A stretch of DNA of 60,140 nt from a virus. Where the stretch lies: positions 1 through 60,140 of the IMG/VR virus record IMGVR_UViG_3300047175_000060; one strand, 5' to 3'. How positions within the stretch are numbered: position 1 is the stretch's first letter; each line of letters begins with the position of its first letter. Shown one piece after another: positions 1,629 through 60,140 of this stretch. A program made the position numbers and the translations under genes. The notes beneath the pieces are model-generated. The model was not told the origin of the DNA. It did not search any database and was given only the letters and a program-made list of their open reading frames with translations.

Positions 1629-1856
1629 CGGCGGCGCGTCTCCTTCGCGGCCCGGGTCGCCAGTCTTGATCAACACCGCCCGGTCGTCATCAGCCACCGC
1701 GAGCGCGGCATAGATGGCCTCGGTCATCCGCGCGTCCTGCTCGACAAACGGCAAAAATTTGCCGTGTTTGCGAACTAACCAAATCTCCTCCCCATACCAA
1801 ACCCGCAGTGCTGCTTCGGTCATCGCGTCGGTGACGACCAAAGAATGGTCGGTCAT
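1626..1856 (-). CDS. Hypothetical early protein
   Basis: A 76-residue unknown protein. Its C-terminal residues (AVLIKTGDPGREGDAPP) are nearly identical to those of the gene at 405-638, while the N-terminal parts are unrelated. This marks the edge of a duplication that includes a decayed CRISPR repeat. It overlaps the upstream gene by 4 bases. Confidence 0.55.
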   Translation of the reverse strand: MTDHSLVVTDAMTEAALRVWYGEEIWLVRKHGKFLPFVEQDARMTEAIYAALAVADDDRAVLIKTGDPGREGDAPP

Positions 1857-7689: not shown

Positions 7690-8012
7690 CTCTCACACGC
7701 GACAGTCTGGTCGACATCCATCCGCGGGCGCAGGAAATCTTTGATCTGGCTCAGACTGGCGCGACTTGGCGAGTAATCGCGTCGAAGACCGGCATGACCG
7801 AAAACGGCGTGTATCTTGTGGTGCGCAGTTTGCGTGCCGCGGGCTTGTTAAAGCGCCGTTCGGCGAACAAGGCGCGCGGCCCAGCCAAGCAAGTGGACGC
7901 CAATATAGGTCGCAGCACCAAGCTCAAATGCCTGTGCTGTTCGAAGGTGTTCCCGTCCGCGGATAGGCGGTCCAACCGGATTTGCAAACGGTGTAAGGGC
8001 GACGCCGCGTGA
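7680..8012 (+). CDS. Winged-helix-like protein with zinc finger
   Basis: About 110 residues from a GTG start with GGAG upstream; a TTG 30 bases earlier is also open. The N-terminal part (EIFDLAQTGATWRVIASKTG) reads as an HTH, and the C-terminus has CLCC and CKRC pairs that could form a zinc site. Probably an early regulator; no specific family assigned. Confidence 0.55.
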   Translation: MALTLTRDSLVDIHPRAQEIFDLAQTGATWRVIASKTGMTENGVYLVVRSLRAAGLLKRRSANKARGPAKQVDANIGRSTKLKCLCCSKVFPSADRRSNRICKRCKGDAA

Positions 8013-37867: not shown

Positions 37868-40020
37868 TGGCCGCCATCCCTGACACAATCGTCCTGCCGT
37901 CCGTCACGCCGCGGATCGACGCGCCCGATACGCAACAGGACGTGCAGCCTCTTGCGGCGGAAGGGCTGCAAAAGATCGGCGATGCTTCACTCAAGACCGG
38001 CCAGTTTTTTGGCCAGCTTCAGACCACAGACGTGCTGAATCAGGCTGGCAGCCAAGCTGACGCGGTTCTCGACCACGTCATGCAGCTCCGGGGTCAGGAT
38101 GCGTTGACCGCAATCCCCGCCGCGCAGAAGCAGGTTCAAGACATCTACAGCAAAGCTCGCTCTCAATTAGGTTCGCTTGACCAGATCGGACAATTTGACC
38201 AGACGGCTGGTCAGATGGTCACGCGCTATTATGGGCGGTATTTTGCGGAAAAGGGGCAGGAAGCTCAGGTTGAATATGCCGGCGCCACCAATCAGCAGCT
38301 CGTGGATACTTCCAATCATCAATCATACGCGGCGACGACCTTAAGCGATCCCGCGGCGTCGGATGCGAGCTTTCAAGATTCGCTCAAAACCGGCAGATCG
38401 GCAGCCGTTCAGGCAACCCAGCTCGCAGGAAATGAGAAGGACCCTGCAATCGTCACCGACGCGGTGCGCCAAAGCGATAGCAGGCAGGCGTCGATTTTTA
38501 TTGAGGGGTGGTTGAACAAAAACCCAACCGTTGGTGCGCAGTTCCTTCAGAAATACGCGCCGATGCTTGACCCACAAGCATACCAGACGCTGTACCGGGC
38601 CGCGCGAAGCGCCACGTTGCCGATGGACTCCAATGCCATTGCGGACGGGGTTCTCGGCATTGCCGGGCCGCAGGCGACCAGCGGCGGAACTGCCGCGACG
38701 GGTGGTCAGCGTCCGGTAAACAACCCCGGCAATCTTCGGGTGCCAGGATCAAAGACTGACTTTCAGCAATTCCCAACCCAGCAGGCCGGGGTCCAAGCGC
38801 TTCAGGATCAGCTTATCCTTGATAATAAGCCGGTCGCGCAAGGTGGCCATGGCTTAACGACGCTGGCCCAGATCATAGGCGATCCAGTCCATGGATGGGC
38901 GCCTTCCACCGAGAACAACACTGCGGCGTATATTGCAAACGTCTCGTCGTGGACGGGTATTGACCCAAACAAACCGATCGACCTTTCTGACCCAGCAACA
39001 CGTAATGCCGTGACTGCCGCGATCATCCGGCAAGAGGGTGGGAGCAGAAGCACCGGCGGCGCCCAAGCGCTTCAGGAGATGGGTGCAAATTTGCCGGCTC
39101 TGATGGACCAAGCCGGCCAGCAGGCGATGAAGCTGCATCCGGACGATGCGGACAACGCCTATCAATCGGCGTCCTATGCGGTCTATCGCAAATACCAATC
39201 GATGGTTGTGTCCAATGACGCGGCACAAAAGGCCAACCTGTTGACCGTGGCCAATGCGGTGACGCAAGGCAAGTTCACCGATCCGGATCAGATTTTTAAG
39301 GCGGGCGGTGCGACTGCGCAAGCCTGGGTCAACTTGGATCCTGACGCCCGAGCTACGGTGTTCACGCTGATGAAGCACAATCTGCCGGGTGCCGATGTCG
39401 TTTGGTCGCCGCAGGCGCAGTCCATGAGCGATCAGCTTGTTGGGCTTTCGATCACCGATCCGGCGGCGTTTCGGAAGGTCAACCTGCTTGATCCGCATTA
39501 CCTTGATGTGATGCCGCACGACATGATCAGCGCTCTGTCCAATCGGCAGACGGATGCGATGGCGACCGCGTCGAGAGGGGTAAGTGATGACGATATTCGC
39601 TCGGCGCTTTCCTTCGTTTCGCCGCTGGCAATTTCTGGTGGCATCAATCCCAAGGCGATAGAGGGCACGTCGGATTACCAGACGTATCAGCAGTTCGTGG
39701 GGGCCTTCACGGCCGATGTGAGCGCCTATTTTGATCAGCACAGCCGGATGCCGGACGCCGCGACGCAACAGCAAATTGCACGCCGCCTTCTGATCAAGGG
39801 AACGGTCGCCGGAACAGGCAGCATGTTCTTCGGCCCAAAGTCCGAATATCTGTTCGAGGCCGAAGGTCAGGGCGGCAATTTGCCGGGCTTTCAGGCAATC
39901 ATACCGCCGGATCAGCTATCGGCGATCAATACGGCCTACAGCAAGATGTACGGGCACCCGCCAGACATGGCGACCGCGACGCAGCTGTATCTTGAGTCTC
40001 TGGCGCCCAAACCCCAATGA
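37867..40020 (+). CDS. Internal virion protein with muralytic-like domain (gp15 position)
   Basis: 717 residues. Around 283-395, NNPGNLRVPGS, FQQFPTQQAGVQALQDQLIL and AAIIRQEGG resemble the lysozyme-like module of phage structural proteins that locally open peptidoglycan. The rest is helical with repeated DP motifs. Position corresponds to T7 gp15. Confidence 0.75.
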   Translation: MAAIPDTIVLPSVTPRIDAPDTQQDVQPLAAEGLQKIGDASLKTGQFFGQLQTTDVLNQAGSQADAVLDHVMQLRGQDALTAIPAAQKQVQDIYSKARSQLGSLDQIGQFDQTAGQMVTRYYGRYFAEKGQEAQVEYAGATNQQLVDTSNHQSYAATTLSDPAASDASFQDSLKTGRSAAVQATQLAGNEKDPAIVTDAVRQSDSRQASIFIEGWLNKNPTVGAQFLQKYAPMLDPQAYQTLYRAARSATLPMDSNAIADGVLGIAGPQATSGGTAATGGQRPVNNPGNLRVPGSKTDFQQFPTQQAGVQALQDQLILDNKPVAQGGHGLTTLAQIIGDPVHGWAPSTENNTAAYIANVSSWTGIDPNKPIDLSDPATRNAVTAAIIRQEGGSRSTGGAQALQEMGANLPALMDQAGQQAMKLHPDDADNAYQSASYAVYRKYQSMVVSNDAAQKANLLTVANAVTQGKFTDPDQIFKAGGATAQAWVNLDPDARATVFTLMKHNLPGADVVWSPQAQSMSDQLVGLSITDPAAFRKVNLLDPHYLDVMPHDMISALSNRQTDAMATASRGVSDDDIRSALSFVSPLAISGGINPKAIEGTSDYQTYQQFVGAFTADVSAYFDQHSRMPDAATQQQIARRLLIKGTVAGTGSMFFGPKSEYLFEAEGQGGNLPGFQAIIPPDQLSAINTAYSKMYGHPPDMATATQLYLESLAPKPQ

Positions 40021-43000
40021 GCGGAAACGAAACCGATCTGCCTGACGTGGAGCCGGAAGCGCTTGTGCCGTCGGCCGGTTCTGGGGTGCCGTCGCCCGCG
40101 CCGGCTGCGGCGTCCGGTGGTGGTCTGCCGCCAAACATCACACCCGGGGATGCCGAAGAAGCGGGCTCTGCGGGTGCCACGCCGCCGCCGCCGCCGGCTA
40201 AACCGCAGGTGCAGCCAGCCGCACCGCCAAATGCCTTGGCCGCGTCGGGTGCGGGAGTGCCGCTACCGACCAGCCCTGACTTTTGGACTGCGCAGATCGC
40301 GCGCATGGCGGACCAGCAACGCGGTCAGGCGACATCGAACCTGGTCAGTGCGCAGGACGTGGATCCTGACAAGGCGGCAGCTGCCCGCACCTTGGCGCCG
40401 TTGCTTGGACTGCCGGCAGTTGCCATGGAGGACAATCCATCATTCTGGCAGCAGCAGGCGGATTTGCGGGTTGCGCGGGGTGTCATGAGCACCGATCAGC
40501 AATTGCAGAAATGGCTGGCATCGGATCCAGGCAACGCCAAGGTTGCGCAAGGCGACGTTCCGCAGCTTGGGCTGATCGGGCGGCTGTGGAACGGGTTCAG
40601 TGAAGGCTTCACGCAGTCAATGTTGGAGCAGCGCATCGGCGAGCTTGGGTTTTCGGAGCAGACTGGAACTGCTTCCCCAAGGCAGATAAACCTTCTCCAA
40701 ACGTTCAAAGAGCAGGCCGCCGCGCAGCCCAAAGAAAAGGGCACGGCCGCGCATATCGGCGGGTTTCTGGGCGGAACGGCGCAGATGTTTGCCAACGCCC
40801 TGCCGGAAGCAGCTGCGGGTGCCGCGGCTGGCGGCGCGACGGGCGCCTTGGCGGGTGGTGTCGGCGCGATTCCGGGTGCGATCGGCGGTGCGGCGGTTGG
40901 CCTCACCGCCGGCGTTGCCGGGCAAAGCGCCATCGAAACATCGGGGCAGACCTATGACACGCTGAGCGATGCGAAGGACAAGCTGGGGCGGCCCATCCCG
41001 GAGGCAACCAAGCAAGCGGCGTCCGTGCTGTCCGGTGTGGTCACAGGCGCTTTGGCGACGGTCGGCGGTGACGTGCTGAGCGCGCCGGTCAAGGCAATGG
41101 TGGCGCCGTTCGTGCGCGACGTTGCATCTGAGGCGGCGACCCGTCCGACACTGGCGCGCGCACTCGGCACTTTCGCCAAAAGCGTCGTGAAAGCCGGGGT
41201 GACGGGTGCGATCGTCAATGGCGGGATGACAACGGTGCAGGCGATTGCGCCGCAGGTCGCGGAGGCGGTGACATCGCCGAATTTCGAGACGGCGTTCAAC
41301 GATCCCGAGATGCGGCAGCAGCTGGTCAACCAGGTGGTGAACTCCTTGGAGGTGGGGGCGCTGGCGTTCCCGCTCATGGAATTGCCCATGCGCGGGGTGA
41401 GCCTCTATGCCGATGTGGTTCGGGCTCGCGCTGCCGCCCGCAGCGTTAGCCAATGGGCAAAGATGATTGACGCCGCGGCCAGGAGCAAAACCCGCCAGCG
41501 CGCGCCGGATGCGTTTTCGGCGCTGATGCAGATGCACGCCGCGGCCGGCGACGTGAACAGCATCTATGTGCCGGCCGAGCGCGTGGCCGAACTCTACCAG
41601 GGCATGCAGACGCGGCCAGGCGAAGCCTTGGACCCTTTTGCCTTCGTGCCGGACATGCAGGAGCAGATGGACCAGGGTTTGCTGACCGGCGGGGATGTGC
41701 AGATCCCGATGGCGCAGTTTGTCGCGCACCTTGCCGGAACGGACATTGAGCGCAACTTGCGTCCTGATATCCGTTTTGCCCCGGATGGCTTTACGTTGCG
41801 TGAGGCTTTGGAGCTGCAAAACCATCCGCCGGCCGATCTGACTGGCTTGACGGATGAAGATGCCGGCGATGTGGGCGTCGATCATTGGGGCGCGGCAATC
41901 CAAGCGGTCAAGGCCGACATCACCGATCAACTGCGCCGCGCGGGGTTCACCCCAAACGTTGCCGAGCAATACGCCACGCTGATCGCAGCGCGGTATGGTG
42001 CGCGCGGTGATGATTTTGCTCAGTCGCCTCTGGATCTGTATCGACAGGAAGGCCTGCAGGTGCTGCGGGAGGATCAGCCGCGCGTTGGTCCCGCGACCTA
42101 TAGCGGGATTGACGAGGCCATAGACAGCTTGCGGCGCGGCGACAGGCAGCCAAGCGACCGGCAACTCTATGGTCCAAGCCTGCTGGAATACCTGACCGGC
42201 GGTTCATTGGGTCAGGGCATGAACCGCGCCCATGAACTTTCAGAAGGCGGCCGGCGCGAAGCCGCAGGCGGCATTCAGGACACGGGCGGCGATATTGCCG
42301 CGATGGGCGGGAACGAGTGGCACCGAGGCCAGCCGGGTCGGCGCAAGCTGATCAACCCGGAGGGCATGCGCATTGAGGAAGCAGCTCAGCGAGCCCATGA
42401 CGCAGGTTATTTCCCGGACCATCCGGACGTGCCGGACATCAATGAGTTTCTGTCGGCGTTGCAGGATGAGTTGAACGGCCGGCAGCGCTATGTGCCGCCG
42501 GAAGGTGAAGCGCTGAAGCGCGAGCAGTCGCGCGCCGTTTCCGAGCAGCTGCGGCAGTTCCTAGATGAGCGCGGCATTGACATTCAGACCGCCACCAATG
42601 CCGAGATCAAGCAGGCGCTGGATGAGGCGCGGGGTGGCGGTGAGGCATTGGATCTATACCAAAGCCACAAAAGTGTAACCAATGATGTTAACGAGTTCGA
42701 CAAGCTGGCAACGGACATCATAAAGAAGGCGGAATATGATCACTACGGTCTTAGGGCCGTATCGCCAAACGAGATGACGGGCGAAAGCATTCGTGTAAAG
42801 CCCGGAGACGAATTGCCGTCATCCTATCGGTGGGAAGATGGAACGCCAACGGAGGAGCAACTTTCGGGCGTTTCGGCGCTTCACCTTAGCAAAAAGATGT
42901 CGGTCTTTAAAGGAATCGCGGCCCTCGACCCGTATTTGATTCATAAAGACACGCAGATTGCGCTCGTTGGAGCGCACTATATGGAACACGGAGAGGACGA

Positions 43001-46000
43001 AGGAGAGGCCGTACTTCGCAATGGTCGGGTGCTTGCCGTTCTCAATCGCGGGAGCGAAGCCGGTCAAACCCTGAATCAGCCGGATGGCAGCTTTGGTATG
43101 CGGGGGTCGATCACGCTCGGCAGCGGTGAGCGGATCGTGCGTCTGTTCAAGGGGTCTGACCGCTCGACGTTTTTGCACGAGATGGGTCATCAGTTCCTCG
43201 ACGAGCTGCTGCGCGATGCGATGCGCGATGACGCGCCGGATGATCTTAAGGCCGACGCCGCAACGGTTCGGAAATGGCTCGGCCTAAAAGATGGCGAGAT
43301 GCCGGGCGTCGATGGCCACGAGAAGTTCGCCACCGGGTTTGAAACCTACCTCATGGAGGGCAAAGCGCCGTCCGTCGAGCTTCAGACTGCTTTCCAGAAG
43401 TTCGCGGCTTGGTTGACGCGCATCTATCGGACGATCACCGCCATCGGCTCGCCGATCACGCCGGACATGCGCGGGGTCATGGACCGGCTGCTTGCCACCG
43501 ATGACGCGATTGCCGAGGCGCGGCAGGGATTGAATCTGAACCCGCTGTTCAAGACCGCGGAAGACGCCCGCATGACCAAGGGCGAATTCGCCGCTTACAC
43601 GGGCATGATCCGCAAAGCCCAGGCACAAGCCTATGACCGGGTGCTCAAGCGCACCATGCGGACGGAAGCGCTCAAGCACAAAGCCGAGTGGAAAGCTGAA
43701 TCCGAATCCGTGCGGCCAGAGATTGAGGCGCAGGTGAAAAGCCGGCCGGCGCTTCAGGCGTGGCATTTGCTGGCTTACGGAAAGGACATCCTGGATCCGG
43801 ATCGCGAGGTGGTGGCGACCAAGCTCGATCTGGCGGTGGCGCGGGACATGCTAGGGGCATCGTTTCCGCGCCTGCCACGCGGACTGACCGCGAAAGAGGG
43901 CGGCATTCACCCCGATGCGCTGGCCCCGGCTTTCGGCTACGAATCCGGCGAGGCAATGCTGCGCGACATCGTGAACGAGAATGTGGGCCGGGAGGAAGCG
44001 GCGGCACAGACGGGTCGCGCCCTGCCGCTCAACAAATACATCGCGGCGCTGGTGGATCAGGGCATTGATGAGCAGCTTGAGCAGTTGTTCGGGGATCCTC
44101 TGACCGATGGCACGGTGGAGGAAACCGCGCTGGCCGCGGCTCATAATGAGGGGCAGCGCGACGTTCTGGCAGCCGAGATGCGCCAGCTTGGCAAGCAGGC
44201 CGGTCAGAAGCCGCCCTATACCGTGCAGCAGGTCACGCAATGGGTGCGCGCATCGCTCGCCAATACGCCGATCAGCCGGGCCATCAGCGTCGCGAAATAC
44301 CGGCGAGCCGAGGCCCAAGCTGGGCGTGAGACGGAGCGGTTTCTGCTGGCCAAGAACCCGATCGAGGCGTTCAAGGCCAAGCAGCGCCAAATGATCGCGC
44401 ATGCCTTTGCCACGGAAGCCGAGAGGCTGCAGCGGGAATGGCAGCGGACCACGACCTATTGGCGGAACGTTGGCAAGACGGCGACGCGGTCTGGGACGGC
44501 GCAGCCATTCGTGGATCAGACGCACCGCATCCTGGAGCGGCTCGGGGTGACCGTGCAGCGCGACCCGGGCGAGCTATCGCGCGCGCTGGCGGGTAAACCG
44601 CTGGCAGAGTTCCAAGATGAACAGAGCCGGCTGGGTGTGGACCTCATGGTTCCGGATTTCCTGCGGGATGCGGCATTCCGGCAGAACTACGAGGGGCTGA
44701 CATCGGATCAGTTTGAAGCCGCGCGTGATGCGGTGCGGTCACTGCTGCATGCCGGGCGCCGGCAGAATGAAGCGGATGTGGCCGGGCGCCGCGTGGCGCT
44801 GGACGATTTGGCCGACCAGATTCAAGACTCGACGGCCATGCTCCCGGATGTGGTGCGGCCCACCGCTTACATCACGCCGGGCGCCGTCGAAGGTGGGATG
44901 CGCGCTGCCAAGGATCTGCTCGCGAATGGTTTGGGCGGGTTGCGCATGGTGGAACATTTGCTGGTGCAGCTCGACGGCGGCAAACCGGGGCCGCTTCATG
45001 CCGCCTTGTTCGCGCCGATGAAGCGTGCGGCCGAGGTAAAGCGTGGGTTCATTGAGCTAAAAAACAGCCTCCTGAAAGAAGCGCTCGATGCGATGCCGGC
45101 CGACTACAAGGCCACGCTCAAGAACTTGGTTGAGGTACCCGGTCTGACCGACCCAAAGACCGGCAAAAACATTGTCCTGACCCGTGACAATTTGCTGGCC
45201 TTGGCGATGAACATCGGCAATGCGGGGGAGGACTCCAACCTCGGCAAGCTGGCGGCCGGCTTTGGTTGGGATCCTGATGCCGTCATTCCGGCACTCGAAC
45301 AGGTCATGACCAAGACGGATTTCGATTTCGCGCAACGTGTGGGCGACCTCTACGAGCGGTTCCGTGAGCCGCTGGATCAGATGAGCCGGGACATGACGGG
45401 GGTCGGGCTGAAATTTGTCGAGCCGACGCCCTTCTCGACGCGGTTTGGCGATTACCGCGGCTGGTATTTTCCGATCATTTATGACCAGTTCGAAAATCCA
45501 GACGTGTTCATGAAAGAGGACCCGTCCAGCCCCTTTGGGGGGAGCCAGTACTTCCGTGCCACCACAAGGTCAGGCAGCACCATAGCGCGCACCGGATACA
45601 AGGGTCGGCTGGAGTTTGATTTGCGCAACGTCGCGACCAGGATCGACCAGACTTTGCACGATATCGCTTTCCGCCGCGCTGTGTCCGATGCCTATAAAGT
45701 GCTGACCCATAAGCGCATCCGGCAAACCATCATCGACAAGGCCGGCCAGCATTCGTACGATTACCTCAACGATTGGCTGCGTTCCGTGGCCCGCAGTGCC
45801 AACGTGGACGACAAGGCGGTGCAAGGGCTCAACCGGGTGATGCGCTATTTTCGCAGCGGGCTCGGCGCGACCTACATCGCGTTTAATCCGATCACGGCGT
45901 TGCTGCATGGTCCGACCGCGTTCCTGCACGGAATGGGCGAGGTTGGTCTGAAGTATTGGACGGGCGCCGCGCGCGATCTTATGGGCTCGCTGTTTTCGTC

Positions 46001-46943
46001 GGGAGAGTCGCAAAAATTCGTCCAGGACAACTCTTATGAGGTGAGGACATACACGCAGCACCTTGGCGAGCAGTCAGCTCAGAACATGCGTCGGTTGCTT
46101 GCTCAGGATACTTTGCTCGCTAAAGCGCGATCCAAGGGCGAAGTGCTCGGCGACTACGCACTGAGCAAAATGCTCAATATGTCGGCGCATATCGTGTTCC
46201 TGGCACGCTACCGGCAGGCGATGGACAGCGGCATGACCAGCGCTGAAGCAGCGGCCGAGGGCGACCGCGCGGTGCGGTTTGCTCATGGCGGCAAAGACAC
46301 AATGGACCAAGCGGCGCTGTTCCGTGCGAACAATGAGTTCGTGCGCAGCATGGTTCAGTTTGCCAGCTTCTTCAACACGATGTTCAACCGATCGGTGGAT
46401 ATCGTCAGCACCGGCGCGCGTGGGATGCGGTCGTATCGGGCCGGCGATCGAGAGGGTGCCCGGCGCGACTTTGCCGACGTGATGGGTAAGGCGTTCACCT
46501 ATTGGTTCCTGACCTCGGCGCTTGGTGCGGGTGTGCGCGGATATATTCAAGGGCAGAAGCCGCAGGATGAAAGCTGGCCGGCTTATTATGCCGAGATGTT
46601 CGGTCTCGACATGACATCCATGGTGCCGGAATTGGAGCAGACGGCATCGCTTTTATTTGGCGTGGAGCGCAGCACCGTGTCAGGAACCCCGGTGACGCAG
46701 GCCGTGCAGGAAATGGGTTCCGTGGTAAGGAATATGGACCACCTTGCCGAAGGCATTCCGATGTCAAAACGCTGGCTGCAGAACGACATTGAGGCCGTTG
46801 GCACGTTTACCCATCTGCCCGGTGGCTTGGTGATCGGCCGAGCGGCTCAGTCCGTGCTGGATGATCTGGACGGCGACGTTGATCCGCAAGGGTTCAGCGG
46901 TTTCGTGAGGGGCCTGCTGTTCGGGCCGCCGAAAGGAAGCTAG
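40017..46943 (+). CDS. Giant internal virion/ejection protein with zincin motif
   Basis: 2308 residues, in the place of T7 gp16. Pro/Ala-rich N-terminus, then a Gly/Ala hydrophobic segment (about 270-310). A zinc-protease signature HEMGH lies at 1054-1058 (TFLHEMGHQFLDELL), followed by EKFATGFETYLMEGK. The C-terminal third holds polyvalent-protein-type modules (LPDVVRPTAYI; STRFGDYRGWYFPII) and membrane-like helices. It is likely ejected with the DNA, and its protease could process host or virion proteins. It overlaps the upstream gene by 4 bases. Confidence 0.8.
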   Translation: MSGNETDLPDVEPEALVPSAGSGVPSPAPAAASGGGLPPNITPGDAEEAGSAGATPPPPPAKPQVQPAAPPNALAASGAGVPLPTSPDFWTAQIARMADQQRGQATSNLVSAQDVDPDKAAAARTLAPLLGLPAVAMEDNPSFWQQQADLRVARGVMSTDQQLQKWLASDPGNAKVAQGDVPQLGLIGRLWNGFSEGFTQSMLEQRIGELGFSEQTGTASPRQINLLQTFKEQAAAQPKEKGTAAHIGGFLGGTAQMFANALPEAAAGAAAGGATGALAGGVGAIPGAIGGAAVGLTAGVAGQSAIETSGQTYDTLSDAKDKLGRPIPEATKQAASVLSGVVTGALATVGGDVLSAPVKAMVAPFVRDVASEAATRPTLARALGTFAKSVVKAGVTGAIVNGGMTTVQAIAPQVAEAVTSPNFETAFNDPEMRQQLVNQVVNSLEVGALAFPLMELPMRGVSLYADVVRARAAARSVSQWAKMIDAAARSKTRQRAPDAFSALMQMHAAAGDVNSIYVPAERVAELYQGMQTRPGEALDPFAFVPDMQEQMDQGLLTGGDVQIPMAQFVAHLAGTDIERNLRPDIRFAPDGFTLREALELQNHPPADLTGLTDEDAGDVGVDHWGAAIQAVKADITDQLRRAGFTPNVAEQYATLIAARYGARGDDFAQSPLDLYRQEGLQVLREDQPRVGPATYSGIDEAIDSLRRGDRQPSDRQLYGPSLLEYLTGGSLGQGMNRAHELSEGGRREAAGGIQDTGGDIAAMGGNEWHRGQPGRRKLINPEGMRIEEAAQRAHDAGYFPDHPDVPDINEFLSALQDELNGRQRYVPPEGEALKREQSRAVSEQLRQFLDERGIDIQTATNAEIKQALDEARGGGEALDLYQSHKSVTNDVNEFDKLATDIIKKAEYDHYGLRAVSPNEMTGESIRVKPGDELPSSYRWEDGTPTEEQLSGVSALHLSKKMSVFKGIAALDPYLIHKDTQIALVGAHYMEHGEDEGEAVLRNGRVLAVLNRGSEAGQTLNQPDGSFGMRGSITLGSGERIVRLFKGSDRSTFLHEMGHQFLDELLRDAMRDDAPDDLKADAATVRKWLGLKDGEMPGVDGHEKFATGFETYLMEGKAPSVELQTAFQKFAAWLTRIYRTITAIGSPITPDMRGVMDRLLATDDAIAEARQGLNLNPLFKTAEDARMTKGEFAAYTGMIRKAQAQAYDRVLKRTMRTEALKHKAEWKAESESVRPEIEAQVKSRPALQAWHLLAYGKDILDPDREVVATKLDLAVARDMLGASFPRLPRGLTAKEGGIHPDALAPAFGYESGEAMLRDIVNENVGREEAAAQTGRALPLNKYIAALVDQGIDEQLEQLFGDPLTDGTVEETALAAAHNEGQRDVLAAEMRQLGKQAGQKPPYTVQQVTQWVRASLANTPISRAISVAKYRRAEAQAGRETERFLLAKNPIEAFKAKQRQMIAHAFATEAERLQREWQRTTTYWRNVGKTATRSGTAQPFVDQTHRILERLGVTVQRDPGELSRALAGKPLAEFQDEQSRLGVDLMVPDFLRDAAFRQNYEGLTSDQFEAARDAVRSLLHAGRRQNEADVAGRRVALDDLADQIQDSTAMLPDVVRPTAYITPGAVEGGMRAAKDLLANGLGGLRMVEHLLVQLDGGKPGPLHAALFAPMKRAAEVKRGFIELKNSLLKEALDAMPADYKATLKNLVEVPGLTDPKTGKNIVLTRDNLLALAMNIGNAGEDSNLGKLAAGFGWDPDAVIPALEQVMTKTDFDFAQRVGDLYERFREPLDQMSRDMTGVGLKFVEPTPFSTRFGDYRGWYFPIIYDQFENPDVFMKEDPSSPFGGSQYFRATTRSGSTIARTGYKGRLEFDLRNVATRIDQTLHDIAFRRAVSDAYKVLTHKRIRQTIIDKAGQHSYDYLNDWLRSVARSANVDDKAVQGLNRVMRYFRSGLGATYIAFNPITALLHGPTAFLHGMGEVGLKYWTGAARDLMGSLFSSGESQKFVQDNSYEVRTYTQHLGEQSAQNMRRLLAQDTLLAKARSKGEVLGDYALSKMLNMSAHIVFLARYRQAMDSGMTSAEAAAEGDRAVRFAHGGKDTMDQAALFRANNEFVRSMVQFASFFNTMFNRSVDIVSTGARGMRSYRAGDREGARRDFADVMGKAFTYWFLTSALGAGVRGYIQGQKPQDESWPAYYAEMFGLDMTSMVPELEQTASLLFGVERSTVSGTPVTQAVQEMGSVVRNMDHLAEGIPMSKRWLQNDIEAVGTFTHLPGGLVIGRAAQSVLDDLDGDVDPQGFSGFVRGLLFGPPKGS

Positions 46944-51630: not shown

Positions 51631-51900
51631 TCACAGCCGGAACGCCCCTGCTGCCTCGTGCTTTGCGACATAATCCCGGATGGCGTCCAGCAACATCTCC
51701 TGCTGCGGCTTGCGCAGATCGACGCGCAGCTTCTGGAACGCAACGACGACCGAATCGGACGGGTCGTAATAGCCCCCGATATGGAGCTTGGCGGCGCGGC
51801 TCGGTTTGGGCGCCGTGGGCTTCGCTGCAACCGACGGCAATTCGGGTGCTTGGAGTGCGGGAACGGCAAGAACAGGGGCAAGCAAAGAGCGTCTAGCCAC
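51631..51900 (-). CDS. ParA partner, RHH centromere-binding protein
   Basis: About 89 residues from GTG. The C-terminal LHIGGYYDPSDSVVVAFQKL followed by MLLDAIRDYVAKHEA is the layout of small RHH ParB-like partners encoded after class Ib parA genes. The start overlaps the parA stop by 8 bases. It should bind the operator/centromere repeats upstream of parA. Confidence 0.75.
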   Translation of the reverse strand: MARRSLLAPVLAVPALQAPELPSVAAKPTAPKPSRAAKLHIGGYYDPSDSVVVAFQKLRVDLRKPQQEMLLDAIRDYVAKHEAAGAFRL

Positions 51901-52552
51901 GGGCGGCAACCTTCTTCTGTTGTGCTTCAGGTGTGCAGCACATATGAATTTGTGCAAAAGCCCAAGCCTGCAATTCTGCAACCTCTCCCGCCGCCTTGCC
52001 GTTTGGCTCGAACTCGCGGGTTGTCTTTCCCAAAGGCCAAGCCGCGCGGAAGGCGCTTCGCTCGCGCAGCACGACGGGGGCTATGGCAAGTCCGACGCCG
52101 GCTACGAGGGCGCGGGCATCATCCAGCAGGACCGTGGCGCCATGCGGAGCGGCATTGAAGACGACGAAAGCCGGGACGACCGCGGACTTGATAAGCTGCG
52201 CTGTGCGCTTGATGGCGTCGAGGTCCACGAGGCTGGGACGGCATGGCACCAGCACAAGGTCGGCTGCCTGGGCGGCGGTGTAGGCCTGCGGCCCGGCGGC
52301 CGGGGGTGTGTCGATCACAGCGAGGTCGAAGCCTTGAGCCGTCGCCGCCTTCAACGCCTCGCTTAGCCGGCGCTCCGTCAGAAACTCGACGTGGGGCAGC
52401 TCGGCGTTGCGCCTGTCAGCCCACATGACGGCGCTCTCTTGCGGGTCGAGGTCGAATACCGCCGCGCGGAGGCCCGCAGAAACGGCGAGATTGACCGCCA
52501 GGGTGCTTTTCCCGACACCGCCTTTCTGGGCAATGAACGCGATTGTCTTCAT
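51893..52552 (-). CDS. parA: ParA partition ATPase
   Basis: 219 residues with the deviant Walker A KGGVGKST (10-17), VFDLDPQESAVMWADRR and AVIDTPPAAGP (Walker B). It positions low-copy replicons on the nucleoid together with its RHH partner. In a phage this implies an extrachromosomal prophage stage. AAAGGA precedes the ATG. Confidence 0.92.
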   Translation of the reverse strand: MKTIAFIAQKGGVGKSTLAVNLAVSAGLRAAVFDLDPQESAVMWADRRNAELPHVEFLTERRLSEALKAATAQGFDLAVIDTPPAAGPQAYTAAQAADLVLVPCRPSLVDLDAIKRTAQLIKSAVVPAFVVFNAAPHGATVLLDDARALVAGVGLAIAPVVLRERSAFRAAWPLGKTTREFEPNGKAAGEVAELQAWAFAQIHMCCTPEAQQKKVAARG

Positions 52553-52619: not shown

Positions 52620-52944
52620 GGGTGTCAACAAGGCCGATACGGTAGAGTCCACAGACCCCGCTTCGTAATTGCCACAGTACGATCAAAGCCTTGCGGGCTC
52701 GTCCTAAGAGCGGCATGATTTCGTATTGAGTCGCGAGGATTGACCTGAACCCAGAGCCCTAGACAGCCGAAAGGCCGCCCGATGTCCAGTCGGACGGCCT
52801 CCCAAAGGCACCGGCAAAGCCGGGGACGCTGCACCTTGACCAGCGCAGTGTCCCTAAAATTTATCCTGCGCGCAAGCCCCAAATAGGGCGCGGGAGAGCT
52901 TTGTCTGCTGATCGGCGCGTCTCGGTCCAACCGAGTAGGTGCCC
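52620..52944. other. Gene-free region with two hairpins, possible replication control region
   Basis: No credible gene. AGGCCGCCCGA pairs with TCGGACGGCCT (52772-52800, one mismatch), followed by CCGGC/GCCGG around AAA (52811-52823). It lies between parA and a Rep-like gene, where plasmids often keep antisense RNAs or origin elements. The second hairpin lacks a T tract. Confidence 0.45.
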
Positions 52945-53424
52945 ATGCTTTCCGAGAAACAAGCCGCTGATATTGCTTACGAAGCCCGCCGGCGCATGAC
53001 CGCCGGGGAGATCGACACCTACGATTTTGCCGTGTTCGACGCCCTTCTATGGGGCGCGCGGCAGAAAGGGTGCGACCGCGTGCGCGTAACTTACAGTCGC
53101 CTTCAGAAGCTCGCTCACGTCTGCCGGGACAAGCTGGCGAGGTCGATCGCCAAGCTTGCCAAGCTCGGGCTGTTTCAAGTGGTCAAAAGCCGGGTGCTGG
53201 TGCTTATGGAAAACGGGGGAAAAACATGGAAACAGCTCGCCAACACCTACGTTTTTTCGGCCATTCGCCGGGAGTCTGTCAGACGGACTGAAAAGATCCA
53301 GCACACTAAGATTCTAAGGGAAGATGGGTTTCGAAAACCTGTGGATAACTCAGCGGCGGGTGAGCACCCGGCGCTTGCGGAGCGGAGAAGGGCAATGGAG
53401 GACCGGCTTCGATGGCCGAAGTGA
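52945..53424 (+). CDS. Rep-like winged-helix protein
   Basis: About 159 residues from ATG (a GTG 6 bases earlier is possible). DTYDFAVFDALLWGARQKGC, VTYSRLQKLAHVCRDKLARS and KLGLFQVVKSRVLVL form a winged helix like plasmid replication initiator-related proteins of alphaproteobacteria; ANTYVFSA follows. It could initiate plasmid-mode replication or be a regulator. Confidence 0.6.
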   Translation: MLSEKQAADIAYEARRRMTAGEIDTYDFAVFDALLWGARQKGCDRVRVTYSRLQKLAHVCRDKLARSIAKLAKLGLFQVVKSRVLVLMENGGKTWKQLANTYVFSAIRRESVRRTEKIQHTKILREDGFRKPVDNSAAGEHPALAERRRAMEDRLRWPK

Positions 53425-53770: not shown

Positions 53771-55043
53771 AACCCCGTCCTTCAGGGCGGGGATATAAGG
53801 CGTTCTTGCTTATTAGACAGAAACGCGCTATGTCTAAGACATGCTCAATGCGACCAGAATCCGCTTCTATCCGACCGATCAGCAAGCCCAAGCCTTGGCT
53901 GTTCAGTTCGGCTGCGCGCGCTGGGTTTGGAACAACGCCCTTGACACAACTAGCACTCTCTACCGGGCGAGCGGAAAGGGCTTGAACTACCACGCGATGG
54001 CGATCCGGCTGCCAAAGCTGAAGCAGGAGTTTGAATGGCTCAGCGATGCTGATTCCCAGGCGCTTCAGCAGTCGTTGCAGAACTTGTCTCGTGCGTTCGA
54101 GAACTTCTTTGCTAAGCGGGGCAGGTATCCGCGCTTCAAGTCCAAACACGGACGCCAAGCGTTCCAGTATCCGCAGCGAGTGAAGATCGACGGTTCTCGC
54201 ATCTACCTGCCAAAAGTCGGCTGGGTGCAGTGCGTCGTCCATCGCGAGATCATCGGCAAGGTCAAGACAGTGACGGTCAGCAGCAATGCCTGCGGCCAGT
54301 TCTACGCCGCGATCCTGACAGACAACGACGATCCGATGCCCCGCGTCTCGACGGACGGAAAGGCCATCGGCATCGATGTCGGTCTGACGCATCTGGCCGT
54401 CACAAGCGACGGATCGAAGTTCGAGAACCCCCGCCATCTGCGCAAGGCGGAAAGGAACCTCAAGCGCAAACAGCGCAAGCTCTCGCGCAAGAAGAAAGGA
54501 TCGAACAGCCGGAACAAGGCCCGGCGGCTGGTCGCTCGCGCGCATGAGCGCGTCGCGTGTGCCAGGAAAGACCACCTTCACAAGCTGTCCCGTCGCATCG
54601 TCAACGAAAACCAAGTGATCGTCGTCGAGGACTTGCATGTGAAGGGCATCATGGCGAACCACAGCGTCGCCCGCGCCACGGCTGACGCGGGATGGGGCAT
54701 GTTCACGGGTTTTCTCGCATACAAGGCCGCACGCGCCGGTAAGGCGTTCGTCAAGTGCGACCGCTGGTATCCGAGTTCCAAGACGTGTTCCGCGTGTGGT
54801 TCGATCTGCGACAAGATGCCGCTGGATGTCCGAGCGTGGACGTGCGTTCATTGTGGCGCACACCACGACAGGGATATCAACGCGGCAAAGAACATCCGCG
54901 CCGAAGGGCTGCGGATATTGGCGGGCGGAGCGCTCGCTACTGTCAGTCGAGGCAATGTCAGTCCTAGCAAGAGGCGCAATCCTCGTGTCAAGGCAGTTGC
55001 CGTTGAAGCTGGAAGCTCCGTCCTTTAGGGCGGAGTAGTTCAC
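53760..55043 (+). mobile_element. IS1341-type tnpB element (IS605 family, no tnpA)
   Basis: Left end hairpin CCCCGTCC-TTCA-GGGCGGGG (53773-53792) and right end hairpin CTCCGTCC-TTTA-GGGCGGAG (55016-55035) followed by AGTTCAC at 55043, the usual termini of tnpB-only elements. The right end overlaps the last tnpB codons and would be the 3' part of its omega RNA. Another hairpin (53715-53735) may be an older end. The exact left edge is uncertain. Confidence 0.75.
53841..55028 (+). CDS. tnpB: TnpB, RNA-guided nuclease
   Basis: 395 residues with an intact RuvC-like site: D179 (IGIDVGLTH), E263 (VVEDLHVKG) and D345 (HDRDINAAK), and a zinc finger CSACG (316-319) / CVHCG (335-338). Only distantly similar to the other TnpB here. 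Its guide would derive from about 55044 onward, immediately upstream of the tracrRNA-cas9 region. Confidence 0.93.
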   Translation: MLNATRIRFYPTDQQAQALAVQFGCARWVWNNALDTTSTLYRASGKGLNYHAMAIRLPKLKQEFEWLSDADSQALQQSLQNLSRAFENFFAKRGRYPRFKSKHGRQAFQYPQRVKIDGSRIYLPKVGWVQCVVHREIIGKVKTVTVSSNACGQFYAAILTDNDDPMPRVSTDGKAIGIDVGLTHLAVTSDGSKFENPRHLRKAERNLKRKQRKLSRKKKGSNSRNKARRLVARAHERVACARKDHLHKLSRRIVNENQVIVVEDLHVKGIMANHSVARATADAGWGMFTGFLAYKAARAGKAFVKCDRWYPSSKTCSACGSICDKMPLDVRAWTCVHCGAHHDRDINAAKNIRAEGLRILAGGALATVSRGNVSPSKRRNPRVKAVAVEAGSSVL

Positions 55044-55127
55044 CTCTGTAGTGGAAGCGCCGGACGCTGATCGACAGACCGCGCTGCACGCCTTGGACAA
55101 GGTAAGAAGGGCTCGGGAGGTGATGCG

Positions 55128-55286
55128 GTGGCCGAAGTGACCGGGGACGACGCGGAGTCTTGGGAAACAGCACGCCAGCGGGCATTGACTCCCAAGCGTT
55201 TCAGCGGTGTTGTGCAGCCATCAACCTTAGCACATCGGGGAAACGTGGGGGTTGGTTTAACAAGCGCGTTCGCGCGCACCGAATAG
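55128..55286 (+). CDS. Short ORF running into the tracrRNA
   Basis: 52 codons from a GTG preceded by GGAGGTGA; starts AEVTGDDAESWETARQRALT. The strong ribosome site and similarity of the first residues to the gene at 53412 suggest a remnant of a duplicated gene whose 3' part is now the tracrRNA anti-repeat and first hairpin. It may be translated or simply decayed. Confidence 0.3.
   Translation: MAEVTGDDAESWETARQRALTPKRFSGVVQPSTLAHRGNVGVGLTSAFARTE
55185..55213 (+). promoter_or_regulatory. Putative tracrRNA promoter
   Basis: TTGACT at 55185-55190, 17 bases, TGTTGT at 55208-55213. Transcription would start near 55220, six bases before the anti-repeat. The -10 is weak, so confidence is moderate. 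Confidence 0.4.
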
Positions 55287-55315
55287 GCGGCGGCCCACGG
55301 GCCGTCGCCTCCTTC
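55220..55315 (+). ncRNA. tracrRNA: tracrRNA
   Basis: The anti-repeat (55226-55261) starts CTTAGCACATCGGGGAAACG and ends GGTTTAAC. It is complementary to a minus-strand crRNA repeat, with a U/UU bulge after eight positions and a U-U mismatch further in, the usual imperfect II-C duplex. The tail has GCGCG-TTCG-CGCGC (55264-55277) and a 10-bp GC stem (55286-55309) followed by TCCTTCT, a terminator-like end. It sits just upstream of cas9. Both 3' hairpins that Cas9 needs seem present. Confidence 0.85.
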
Positions 55316-55328
55316 TGAGGAACGGCTC

Positions 55329-58300
55329 ATGGCCTACCGCCTTGGTCTCGATCTTGGACCCAGCAGCATCGGCTGGGCTGCCTTGACGCTCGACGAAACG
55401 GGGGTGCCCTGCGGCGTGTTGGACCTCGGGGTGCGGATATTTTCGGACGGACGGCACCCAAAAGACGGCACCTCGCTTGCCGCGCAACGCCGTGGTCCGC
55501 GCGGCATGCGGCGCAATCGCGACCGCTACCTCCAGCGCCGAAAAGCACTCCTCAACGCCCTGACACGGGCCGGACTCATGCCGGCCGACGAGAGCGCGCG
55601 CACAGCCGTCGCGCGACTCGATCCCTGGTCCCTGCGCGCCGCTGCCCTCCAACGCGCGCTGCGGCCGGAGGAATTGGGACGCGCACTCTTCCATCTCAAC
55701 CAGCATCGAGGTTTCCGCTCCAACCGCAAGACCGACCTTGGGAACAAGCAGGGGCGTCTGATCGACGCGGCGGCGCGAGACACGGCACATCTCATGCACC
55801 AGACGGGACACCAGACGATCGGCGAGTGGCTAGCCGCGCGGCACGCCGAGCGTTTGCCCGTGCGCGTGCGGCTAGAGGGTTCGGGCAAGAACGCCCGATA
55901 CGAGTTCTATCCCCAACGCGCGATGGTCGAGGCCGAGTTTGATCTGATGTGGGCGGCTCAGGCCGAGTTCAACGCGGCGCTGAGCGACGAGCTGCGCGCC
56001 GAGTTGCGGCGCATCATCTTCCATCAGCGCCCCCTAAAACCGGCCGTCGTCGGCAAGTGCTGGCTGGAGCCGGGCGAAGATCGCGCGCCCCGCGGGCTGC
56101 CGACCACGCAGAGGTTTCGCATTGCTCAGACCGTCTCCCATCTGCGTGTCTCGCAGCCCGGATTGCCGGAACGGCGGCTGACGGCCAAGGAGCGCAATGC
56201 CCTGCTGGCGGTCCTTTACCTCGGCCGCGACCAGAAGCTGACGACATTGGCCAAAAAGCTGGGTCTGCCGCCCGAGACCGATTTCAACTACCGCGACGAC
56301 GTGCTGGTGGGGTGCCGCGTGGCCGCCAAACTCGGGAGCAAGGCCTGTCTTGGCCCCGAATGGCATGATCTGACCTTGGCGCAGCAGGACGCCGTCGCCC
56401 GCGCCCTGCTTGACGCCGAAGACGACGAGACCGCCATCGCGGCCTTGCAAGCCCTCGGCCTCAGCCAGGATATGGCCGAACGCGCCGCCAATGCGGCGTT
56501 GCCGGACGGTCACGCCGCATTGGCGTATCGCGCCCTGGCGAAGATCCTGCCGTTTCTAGAAGACGGGGAAACTTACAACCGCGCCGTGCAGCTCGCCGGC
56601 TATGAGCACCATTCCGATCGGCGCACGGGCGAGGAGCGGAACCGGCTGCCCTACTACGGCGAAGTGCTGTCGGCGCGCATCGGCACCGGCACGGGCGCCC
56701 TCGACGATAGCGACGAGAAGCGGCTGGGAAAAGCGCCGAACCCGACCGTCCATGTCGCCTTGAACCAGCTTCGCCATGTGGTGAACGCGGTGATTGAGCA
56801 GCATGGCCTGCCGGCTGAAATCGTCGTCAAGACCTCGCGAGAGGTGGGCCGGTCGGCGGAACAGCGCCGGGCCTACGAGGAGCAGCAAAGGACGAGACGC
56901 GCCGACAACGACCGTCGCCGCGCCGAAATCCTATCTCTTGGTTTCAAGGTCACGCGCGACAGTCTCATGCGGATGCGGCTGCTGGATGAGCAGGCGGACG
57001 ACCCCAAGCAGCGCTGTTGTCCTTACTCGGGCCAGTTCATCTCGCCGCGCCTGGCACTCTCCGACGCTATTGAGATGGACTACATCCTGCCGTTCTCGCT
57101 GTCGTTGGACGACAGCGCGGCCAATCGGGTGCTTACCACGCGGGAGGCGAATCGCCGCAAAGCCAACCGCACGCCTCATCAGGCTTTCGCCAACACCGAG
57201 GACTGGCCCGACATCTTGAAGCGGGTGGCGCTGCTGCCTGACACCAAGCGCTGGCGGTTCGCACCCGACGCGATGGCGAAGCTTGCCCAGGACTACATCC
57301 TTCATCGGTATCTGACCGACACCTCGACGATAGCGCGTTGGGCCGTTGAATATCTGAGCATCATCGCGCCAGAGAACGTCTGGGGTATCCCAGGTCGGCT
57401 GAGTTCGCTGTTGCGATACGAACTCGGCCTCCATTCGCTAAGCGCCCGGACGGATCACCGCCATCATGCGATCGACGGGGTTGTGGCGGCGCTGACCGAT
57501 CGGGCGATGTTGCAGCGTGTGGCGCGCGCAGCGAAGGCGTCCGAAGACCTCGGCTTGGGGCTCTCGCTCCAGATGGACGAGCCTTGGGATAACTTCGTTG
57601 CCGATGTCACGGACAAACTAGCTGCCGTCACGGTTTCGATCAAAGCCGATACCGGCTGGCAAGGGGCGCTTCATAACGACAGCAATTACGGCCTCATTCA
57701 CGGGGCGGCCCCCGCCGAGCATAACGTCGTCATCCGCCGTCCTATCCTTACGCTTGCGGCTTGGGCGCCTGACGAAGCGCGCGAGGGCGTGCGTGATCCG
57801 GTGCTGGCCGCGAAGATTGCCGAAGTTTTGGAAGACGCGACCCCCGGCGAGCGAAAGTCACGATTGGCAGCGCTTGTGCATTCGGGCGGGTATCGGGTGA
57901 GGCGGGTGCGAACTACGGAGAAAGTGAAGGTGCGCGCGATCAAAGATCAAAAAAGCGGACAGCCGTATCGCGCGGTCAAGCTTGATGGCAACCACCGTTT
58001 CGAGGTCTGGCGCCGGCCAAGCGGCGAGTTGGAGACATGCATTGTCACGACGTTTGATGCAGCGCAAGCGGCAGAGGCGGCCCGGCTCGGCCGACCTGCC
58101 CCGAAGCAGACAAGGCACCCGGCGTCCAAGCTGATCCTTCAGGCCCATAAGAATGACATGCTGGCATTCGGGCATGGCGACCGGCGCCGCATTCTCCGAG
58201 TCGTGAAAATGAGTGGCAATCTTTTGGTGCTGGCCGATCATCACGAATCCGGCAGTCTGCAAGAGCGGAACGGCGACAACAGCGACCCGTTCAAATATGT

Positions 58301-58394
58301 GTCTGCCAGCGTCCGCAGACTCGTGCGGGAGCAGGCTCGTAAAGTCTTTGTGCGGCCGGACGGACGCATCCTTGATCCTGGGTCTGTCTTTTGA
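55329..58394 (+). CDS. cas9: Cas9, type II-C, both nuclease sites altered (natural dead Cas9)
   Basis: 1021 residues, a normal compact II-C length, with no frameshift. RuvC-I D8 is intact (RLGLDLGPSSIGW), as are the Arg-rich bridge helix (about 50-80) and RuvC-III H713 and D716 (HRHHAIDGVV). RuvC-II reads IVVKTSREVGRS where Nme Cas9 has IHIETAREVGKS, so the catalytic Glu is K501. HNH reads EMDYILPFS where the family has EIDHALPFS, so the catalytic His is Y585; the HNH Asp (D584) and Asn remain. The C-terminal PAM-interacting region is full length. The protein should bind guide RNA and DNA but is expected to cut neither strand. GAGGA precedes the ATG. Confidence 0.95.
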   Translation: MAYRLGLDLGPSSIGWAALTLDETGVPCGVLDLGVRIFSDGRHPKDGTSLAAQRRGPRGMRRNRDRYLQRRKALLNALTRAGLMPADESARTAVARLDPWSLRAAALQRALRPEELGRALFHLNQHRGFRSNRKTDLGNKQGRLIDAAARDTAHLMHQTGHQTIGEWLAARHAERLPVRVRLEGSGKNARYEFYPQRAMVEAEFDLMWAAQAEFNAALSDELRAELRRIIFHQRPLKPAVVGKCWLEPGEDRAPRGLPTTQRFRIAQTVSHLRVSQPGLPERRLTAKERNALLAVLYLGRDQKLTTLAKKLGLPPETDFNYRDDVLVGCRVAAKLGSKACLGPEWHDLTLAQQDAVARALLDAEDDETAIAALQALGLSQDMAERAANAALPDGHAALAYRALAKILPFLEDGETYNRAVQLAGYEHHSDRRTGEERNRLPYYGEVLSARIGTGTGALDDSDEKRLGKAPNPTVHVALNQLRHVVNAVIEQHGLPAEIVVKTSREVGRSAEQRRAYEEQQRTRRADNDRRRAEILSLGFKVTRDSLMRMRLLDEQADDPKQRCCPYSGQFISPRLALSDAIEMDYILPFSLSLDDSAANRVLTTREANRRKANRTPHQAFANTEDWPDILKRVALLPDTKRWRFAPDAMAKLAQDYILHRYLTDTSTIARWAVEYLSIIAPENVWGIPGRLSSLLRYELGLHSLSARTDHRHHAIDGVVAALTDRAMLQRVARAAKASEDLGLGLSLQMDEPWDNFVADVTDKLAAVTVSIKADTGWQGALHNDSNYGLIHGAAPAEHNVVIRRPILTLAAWAPDEAREGVRDPVLAAKIAEVLEDATPGERKSRLAALVHSGGYRVRRVRTTEKVKVRAIKDQKSGQPYRAVKLDGNHRFEVWRRPSGELETCIVTTFDAAQAAEAARLGRPAPKQTRHPASKLILQAHKNDMLAFGHGDRRRILRVVKMSGNLLVLADHHESGSLQERNGDNSDPFKYVSASVRRLVREQARKVFVRPDGRILDPGSVF

Positions 58395-59284
58395 GCGGTT
58401 GTCCGATCGGCCGGATCGTCGAGGTCGCCGAGCCCGGACGATACCTCGCCAAGTCGCGCGGATTCCTGACCGTGACAGAGGGCGCCGAAGAACTGGGGCG
58501 CGTGCCGCTCGACGACATATCGGCGGTCATTGCCACATGCTCCGCCACGACAGTCTCGTGCGTGCTGCTGGCCGATTTGGCGATGCGTGGTATTCCGTTC
58601 GTGCTCAATGGTCCAAACTACGCGCCAGCAGCCATCCTTTGGCCGATCGCCGGCCATCATGCACAGCAACGCCGGTTTGAAATGCAGGCTGAAGCGGGCA
58701 GGCCTCTAAAAAAGCGTCTATGGGCGCTCGTGGTCGCTGCGAAGATCCGTGCTCAGGGCAACGCCTTGGCAGCAGCCGGCATGGCGTCAGGCGGGTTTGA
58801 ATTTTTGGCGCGCCAAGTCAAATCCGGCGACCCGAATAATCTTGAGGCACAGGCCGCTCGTCGATACTGGCCCTTGTTGATGGGTTCCGAGTTTCGCCGC
58901 GACGTTGCCGCAGACGGGGCCAATGCCATGCTCAACTACGGCTACGCGGTGCTGCGAGCCGCGACCGCTCGTGCAATCGTCGCCGCCGGCCTACACCCAG
59001 GTTTGGGCATCTTCCATCGCCATCCACACGATGCCATGCCGCTTGCCGACGATCTAATGGAGCCGTTTCGGCCCCTGGTTGATGGGATGGTGCGCGGGTT
59101 AATGCTTGAGGGTGAGAGTGTCATCACGCCCGATGTCAAACGGCGTTTGGCTGGGGTGCTTCATATGGATCAGACCACGGACGTTGGCACGACGCCGCTA
59201 GAGACGTGCATGCAGCGCCTAGCAACGAGCGTTGCCGAGAGCTTTTTAAGCGGCAAGCCTGAACTGGCGTTTCCTCATTTCTGA
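58391..59284 (+). CDS. cas1: Cas1 integrase
   Basis: 297 residues from TTG, overlapping the cas9 stop by 4 bases (TTGA). Active-site residues E152 (NNLEAQAARRYW), H209 (LGIFHR) and D220/D221 (LADDLMEPFRP) are conserved, so spacer integration should be possible. Family signature ATCSATTVSCVLLADLAMRG is normal for type II Cas1. Confidence 0.95.
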   Translation: MSGCPIGRIVEVAEPGRYLAKSRGFLTVTEGAEELGRVPLDDISAVIATCSATTVSCVLLADLAMRGIPFVLNGPNYAPAAILWPIAGHHAQQRRFEMQAEAGRPLKKRLWALVVAAKIRAQGNALAAAGMASGGFEFLARQVKSGDPNNLEAQAARRYWPLLMGSEFRRDVAADGANAMLNYGYAVLRAATARAIVAAGLHPGLGIFHRHPHDAMPLADDLMEPFRPLVDGMVRGLMLEGESVITPDVKRRLAGVLHMDQTTDVGTTPLETCMQRLATSVAESFLSGKPELAFPHF

Positions 59285-59309: not shown

Positions 59310-59615
59310 ATGTGGCTGGTGGTGATGTTTGATCTTCCGACGCACACAAAAGCGGAGCGGAAGGCGGCTGCAAAGTTCCGGGTGTGGCTACTCGACCAGG
59401 GCTACGAGATGAGCCAGTGGAGCGTCTATTTGAGGTTCGCGGCCGGCAAAGAACAGGTCGAAAGGCGCGTGCGGGACATCGACAAAGCCCGGCCGAGCAA
59501 AGGCGTCGTCCACGTCCTGGCCGTGACAGACCGCCAATTTGAGCAAATAACGGTGTTCCGCGGTGAAAAAACGGCCAAAAACCGGGGCCGACCAGACGAA
59601 CTTGCGCTGTTTTAG
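59310..59615 (+). CDS. cas2: Cas2
   Basis: 101 residues; WLVVMFDLPTHTKAERKAAA and VLAVTDRQFEQITVF are typical of type II-C Cas2, which dimerises between two Cas1 dimers during spacer integration. It is 25 bases after cas1. No csn2 or cas4 follows, which fits subtype II-C. Confidence 0.93.
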   Translation: MWLVVMFDLPTHTKAERKAAAKFRVWLLDQGYEMSQWSVYLRFAAGKEQVERRVRDIDKARPSKGVVHVLAVTDRQFEQITVFRGEKTAKNRGRPDELALF

Positions 59616-59667: not shown

Positions 59668-60140
59668 GCTTAGCACATCGGGGAGATGCGGGGGAGGATC
59701 AACTACTTGTTGGTGTGGGTTCCATTCGGTTCGGCTTAGCACATCGGGGAGATGCGGGGGAGGATCAACTGGAAATGACGAACATGATCATTTGATCAAG
59801 CTTAGCACATCGGGGAGATGCGGGGGAGGATCAACTACATGGTCACGGATGTTCGTAGCCTTGGAGCTTAGCACATCGGGGAGATGCGGGGGAGGATCAA
59901 CTTGGAGCAAGATACTCGTTCGATAGCGGGGGCTTAGCACATCGGGGAGATGCGGGGGAGGATCAACACTTTTTCATTGCATATGGCACAAAGAGCAGCT
60001 TAGCACATCGGGGAGATGCGGGGGAAGGTCAACAGGAGGGACCGCGTATCTTGAAGCTCGTGCGCTTAGCACATCGGGGAAACGAGGGGGAGGATCAACG
60101 CAACCGAGTTTGTTTGCAAACCCATATGCGCTTAGCACAT
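59668..60140 (-). CRISPR. CRISPR array, cas2-proximal part
   Basis: Seven complete 36-bp repeats (59668, 59734, 59800, 59866, 59932, 59998, 60064), seven spacers of exactly 30 nt and the first 11 bases of an eighth repeat at the window edge. The first six repeats carry GGGGAGATGCGGGGG; the seventh has the GGGGAAACGAGGGGG variant that continues at the left end of the window. crRNAs should be read from the minus strand, beginning GTTGATCC. Confidence 0.97.

Follow-up and report, generated by a model that had tools for sequence, protein, structure and literature searches.

Organization of the CRISPR-Cas locus

The DNA analyzed here, to which we refer as the window, is a 60,140-bp virus contig with a CRISPR-Cas locus that runs up to its right end and resumes at its left end, and with a putative tracrRNA directly upstream of cas9. 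Its relevant features are the following:

51893-52552, minus strand: gene of a ParA-type partition ATPase that shares 63% identity with ParA of Sphingomonas plasmids
55226-55261, plus strand: tracrRNA anti-repeat, pairing with the crRNA repeat read from the minus strand (duplex energy and shuffle score)
55255-55312, plus strand: tracrRNA tail (covariance model R1, 27.4 bits, E 1.9e-7, the top match in the window)
55264-55277, plus strand: hairpin 1 of the tail, UUCG-capped, 5 bp, GCGCG-UUCG-CGCGC (fold; covariance-model alignment)
55285-55310, plus strand: hairpin 2, GC-rich, terminator-like, 11 bp, with a weak U-run (fold; covariation in relatives)
55317-55322, plus strand: Shine-Dalgarno-like GAGGAA, between the tracrRNA and the cas9 ATG at 55329
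55329-58394, plus strand: cas9, 1021 aa, type II-C (TIGR01865, 522.9 bits)
58391-59284, plus strand: cas1, 297 aa, type II (TIGR03639, 211.4 bits)
59310-59615, plus strand: cas2, 101 aa (TIGR01573)
59668-60140, minus strand: right part of the CRISPR array, seven 36-nt repeats with 30-nt spacers; the contig end cuts an eighth repeat
1-410, minus strand: left part of the array, continuing the right part and ending in a degenerate terminal repeat (371-406)
1526-1633, minus strand: remnant mini-array of two degenerate repeats and one spacer; a copy of the far flank of the array comes after it

The cas genes are cas9, cas1, and cas2 only, and Cas9 is short, as is typical of type II-C; in the list of open reading frames, nothing is entered between cas2 and the array. 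Alignment shows the catalytic triad of Cas1 (E152, H209, and E224) to be intact. Counted across the contig ends, with the mini-array taken apart, the array has at least 13 repeats; those beside cas2 are identical, and the degenerate one stands at the far end, just as the cas-distal end repeat was the more degenerate one in 29 of 30 informative relatives. The sequence that follows the mini-array is a near-copy of that beyond the far end of the main array (1526-1760 and 371-470, array ends included), and the array end thus seems to have been duplicated together with its flank. For the 14 spacers, no convincing target was found in phage or plasmid collections or in the collected cas9 loci, and two of them, searched as exact 20-mers against the viral contigs, gave no target either.

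A probable phage replicon for the locus

The last 11 bases of the contig are the first 11 of the repeat and its first 11 bases are the repeat's last 11, both ends being parts of one array in the same orientation. Since they are the outer pieces of a single 36-nt repeat, the most economical interpretation is a circular record, opened within the array; this rests on the array ends, the source table giving the record no 'complete' mark. The genes include those of a repressor, an exonuclease, a primase-helicase, a terminase, an epsilon15-like portal, and capsid, tail, and lysis proteins. Judged by this content, the phage is a temperate podovirus, and the CRISPR locus very probably sits on its replicon. 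A prophage lying beside a host CRISPR locus, with the array as host flank, is disfavored, since the left end of the record begins within the array as well. The window has no match to tyrosine or serine recombinase/integrase families (PF00589 and PF00239), and the virion genes, ParA, the lack of a recognized integrase, and the inferred circle point together to a probable phage-plasmid. Related phages share with the window only the structural block at 15-47 kb, and in these records, several of which are fragments, neither cas9 nor ParA was found. A 2308-aa polyvalent phage protein with an LPD22 domain (40017-46943) is also found in related podoviruses.

An IS200/IS605-type TnpB gene (53841-55045) with a right-end-like hairpin (CTCCGTCCTTTAGGGCGGAG) lies between the ParA-side genes and the tracrRNA. 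Near parA, a 161-aa protein of no known family is encoded at 52939-53424, and a 28% identical homologue adjoins a repeat cluster on a different tailed phage, G015 (contig IMGVR_UViG_3300047326_000044); the protein may serve these elements in replication or regulation. G015 carries two long arrays and this short degenerate cluster (repeats at L136 7733-8368 and 12041-12482 and at L137 about 5130-5365), and its repeat differs from that of the window by one base. There is no cas9 on the G015 contig, where an array reaches the contig end at which cas genes would lie.

Identity of the tracrRNA upstream of cas9

The initial annotation had described the sequence ahead of cas9 as a complete plus-strand tracrRNA and not a stray repeat, in which an anti-repeat bearing a single additional base precedes a UUCG-capped hairpin and then a terminator-like, GC-rich one, all ahead of the ribosome site. 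Our analysis supports this description, with one qualification. The anti-repeat (CTTAGCACATCGGGGAAACGTGGGGGTTGGTTTAAC) indeed has one extra base relative to the array repeat (GCTTAGCACATCGGGGAGATGCGGGGGAGGATCAAC), and in the 1 kb upstream of cas9 it reached a local score of 21 against that repeat, the maximum of 1000 shuffles being 17. Its computed duplex with the minus-strand crRNA repeat has an energy of -51.1 kcal/mol, compared with a mean of -22.0 and a best value of -32.2 kcal/mol for 500 shuffled repeats, and both hairpins fold, the UUCG-capped one following the anti-repeat as described. The qualification concerns the terminator: hairpin 2 is present and covaries in relatives, but the U-run 3' of it is only CCUUCUGA, and a terminator scan called no terminator there. 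A promoter scan found no sigma-70-like promoter upstream of the tracrRNA.

For comparison, cas9 loci were gathered from 80 genome contigs, 8 viral contigs, and 9 plasmid loci, and the anti-repeats were located in them. The tracrRNA tails of 29 relatives, with the window excluded, were used to build a covariance model (R1). These tails share a conserved TTAACAAGC-hairpin-GCACCRAAU-terminator order, their common elements being TTAACAAG, then a variable small hairpin, GCACAAAAU, and the terminator hairpin, in which eight of eight modelled pairs covary. Of the relatives outside its training set, nearly all also have a tracrRNA ahead of cas9 that the model detects. Since a model built without the window matches it at E 1.9e-7, the plus-strand sequence at 55226-55310 can be assigned with great confidence to the tracrRNAs of the type II-C family. 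A second match (7800-7853, minus strand, E 0.33) is weak and was taken as chance. An Rfam search gave no match for the tracrRNA, which means little, as Rfam is not bound to contain a family for such tracrRNAs.

It is highly improbable that the sequence at 55226 is instead a stray repeat, or a decoy RNA consisting of one repeat, with no tracrRNA present. It shares the orientation of the array repeats, contrary to the anti-repeats of nearly all relatives, and G015 offers an example of scattered repeats of the same type; however, a conserved tracrRNA tail recognized by model R1 directly adjoins it on the 3' side, on which ground the stray-repeat identity was rejected, and two other loci (L056 and L074) combine the same tracrRNA direction with strong R1 scores.

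Direction of the tracrRNA and polarity of the crRNAs

In nearly all relatives the tracrRNA is encoded on the strand opposite to cas9 and points away from it, and among the loci compared it reads into cas9 only in the window and in L056 and L074, both from Sphingomonas. The orientation of the array repeats, on the other hand, is the same in the window and in all relatives, L056 and L074 included. This uniformity argues that the crRNAs of the window, like those of the relatives, are almost certainly minus-strand transcripts, opposed in direction to the cas genes. An array opposed to the cas operon, as deduced from the polarity of the anti-repeat and tail, agrees with the published rule for II-B and II-C loci, whose arrays are transcribed against the direction of the cas operon, with variable position and direction of the tracrRNA (PMC3936727). 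The polarity put forward initially is therefore borne out by the conservation of the tail, the R1 match, and the published rule. The accompanying likeness to Neisseria and Campylobacter holds for array polarity; in tracrRNA position and direction, C. jejuni and N. meningitidis differ from each other (PMC3936727).

Given the weak U-run and the end of hairpin 2 only 18 bases before the cas9 start, it is plausible that tracrRNA transcription runs through into cas9. Taken by itself, the RNA is rather unremarkable among II-C tracrRNAs apart from its uncommon direction.

Substitutions in both nuclease centers of Cas9

Alignment to NmeCas9 revealed that the window Cas9 does not hold the complete set of RuvC and HNH catalytic residues: the RuvC-II Glu is replaced by Lys (E501K; codon AAG, 56829-56831) and the HNH catalytic His by Tyr (H585Y; codon TAC, 57081-57083). 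Position 501 is Glu and position 585 is His in 93 of 93 relatives, and both residues are also kept in 8 further relatives, of which one is locus L015 again. The window deviates in only 3 of 84 near-invariant columns (E501K, H585Y, and F657I), two of them catalytic, and D8 of RuvC-I, D584 and N608 of HNH, and H713 and D716 of RuvC-III are present. The full-length AlphaFold2 model has a pLDDT of 85.4 and aligns structurally with Nme1Cas9 across 914 residues (Z 30), and the divergence of Cas9 matches that of Cas1 (mean residual -0.03, rank 10 of 80). As far as alignment and model can tell, the pattern is one of cutting lost and the remainder retained. In SpCas9, mutation of the equivalent residues (E762 and H840) to alanine eliminates cutting of the strand for which each is responsible. 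We consider it probable that the window Cas9 cleaves no target, although a Tyr in place of the HNH His, or a Lys in RuvC-II, could be compatible with some residual activity.

For each of the two catalytic substitutions, one G:C to A:T transition would suffice as an explanation, and both are known from one metagenomic contig; with one sequence and single transitions, a recent inactivation is indistinguishable from an established dead Cas9. The closest relative is only 44-46% identical, so the age or conservation of the dead state cannot be shown. Searches with window peptides gave no close relative in viral contigs (Cas9 and Cas1) or in genome contigs (Cas9 only), and a class-wide search of 385 genomes yielded nothing above 46% identity, with the caveat that intermediate relatives may have been missed because the alignment-guided genome scan motifs do not exactly match the window. 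No host with the repeat of the window was found in 402 genomes.

Several of the collected loci deserve mention in their own right. On a Marinibacterium anthonyi plasmid (CP031595.1; L009, 5001-8003), a Cas9 relative has Ser in place of the RuvC-I Asp and changed RuvC-III residues while keeping the HNH His; cas1 and cas2 are not annotated nearby, and it resembles the RuvC-dead pattern of II-C2. Two viral contigs (L091 and L092) encode a II-C Cas9 that retains the RuvC-II Glu and HNH His, and since an array begins 0-205 bases past cas9, cas1 and cas2 seem to be missing at that place. In plasmids of Azospirillum thermophilum and Sphingobium sp. RAC03 (L002 and L010), cas9 is split or shortened.

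Comparison with known systems

The window shares with alphaproteobacterial II-C loci the cas9-cas1-cas2-array order, a tracrRNA upstream of cas9 with the same tail, 36-nt repeats with 30-nt spacers, minus-strand crRNAs, and a degenerate cas-distal repeat. It differs from them in that its tracrRNA reads into cas9 with only a poor U-run, in that its Cas9 has lost the RuvC-II Glu and the HNH His, and in that it is a phage replicon. The sole naturally inactivated phage Cas9 in the literature found, that of II-C2, is likewise a phage-encoded II-C Cas9 with a tracrRNA and a disabled RuvC (in the window, by sequence), but it keeps an active HNH, has no CRISPR array, and is associated with an SNF2 helicase (PMC10910872, PMC12669027). 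The window, in contrast, has the HNH His substituted and possesses arrays, cas1, and cas2, and so corresponds to II-C2 in its RuvC-inactivated phage Cas9 and in neither the active HNH nor the missing array.

Other mobile-element CRISPR effectors bind without cleavage: Cas12m (type V-M) and plasmid-borne type IV-A silence by binding and do not cleave their targets (PMC11656645). Their effectors are unrelated to that of the window, and silencing is demonstrated there, whereas for the window it is inferred. A complete adaptive CRISPR-Cas system with its adaptation module is also carried by phage ICP1, but that system is of type I (I-F) and nuclease-competent (PMC11656645).

Discussion

These findings led us to hypothesize that the phage carries a natural nuclease-dead type II-C system which silences its targets by binding, a reading whose chances we judge to be evenly balanced. 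It draws on (i) the confidently predicted fold, (ii) the retention of 81 of 84 near-invariant columns, (iii) the intact Cas1 triad, and (iv) the identical cas-proximal repeats. In such a system, the tracrRNA would be read on the plus strand, into cas9, and the crRNAs on the minus strand, and their repeat parts would pair, as computed. By analogy with established type II biology, host RNase III would trim the tracrRNA:crRNA duplex and the phage Cas9 would be loaded with it. With a catalytic residue lost in both RuvC and HNH, the complex would most likely bind target DNA without cutting it, and, as with the inactivated Cas12m and the type IV-A systems, which have no nuclease, the bound Cas9 could silence genes of rival mobile elements or superinfecting phages. 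Cas1-Cas2, with the triad intact, could still add spacers. The protospacer search was null for the 14 spacers in the collections covered, which counts against this reading, and targets give no basis for choosing between it and the others.

One of these holds that the phage Cas9 and its tracrRNA act as an anti-CRISPR by mimicry, soaking up the crRNAs of a host II-C system with the same repeats and so protecting the phage. A precedent exists in a phage II-C Cas9 with dead RuvC whose tracrRNA matches host repeats (PMC10910872, PMC12669027), and the arrays of G015, one base off in their repeat and with no cas9 on the contig, indicate that different elements, which may live in one host, have this repeat type in common. 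Yet the precedent has no array and an active HNH, the window keeps cas1, cas2, and arrays that a pure sponge would not need, and the scanned genomes gave no host with this repeat, all of which makes this role unlikely. We hold it similarly improbable that the system is in decay, its Cas9 having been inactivated recently, for example in escape from self-targeting, and being now functionless. Such decay would fit two loss-type substitutions for which single transitions suffice, the split or truncated cas9 of some relatives on plasmids and contigs, and the null result for spacer targets. Against it, the cas9 reading frame is intact, the two changes fall in separate nuclease centers with 81 of 84 near-invariant columns kept, Cas9 is not accelerated relative to Cas1, and the tracrRNA, Cas1, and Cas2 are intact. 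Less probable still, and quite unlikely, is a Cas9 that remains active, or in which one substitution is a sequence error, so that the locus would confer ordinary phage-borne II-C immunity or encode a nickase: D8, D584, N608, H713, and D716 are present, and related Cas9 proteins on other viral contigs retain the Glu and His, but both substituted residues are invariant in the family, and the SpCas9 alanine changes mentioned above abolish cleavage.

Silencing by a nuclease-dead Cas9 is thus the reading that we put forward, and whether the dead protein was retained because silencing is useful is, in our estimation, a question with about equal weight on both sides. What is new here is a Cas9 substituted in both nuclease centers that occurs together with arrays and intact adaptation genes on a phage replicon. 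The reversed tracrRNA, lacking a strong terminator, suggests that guide supply and cas9 expression may be coupled, an idea open to testing. If the silencing reading is true, the phage would provide a natural dCas9 that comes ready-made with guide RNAs of its own, and type II would join the trend of Cas12m and type IV-A toward defense or competition by silencing without cutting.
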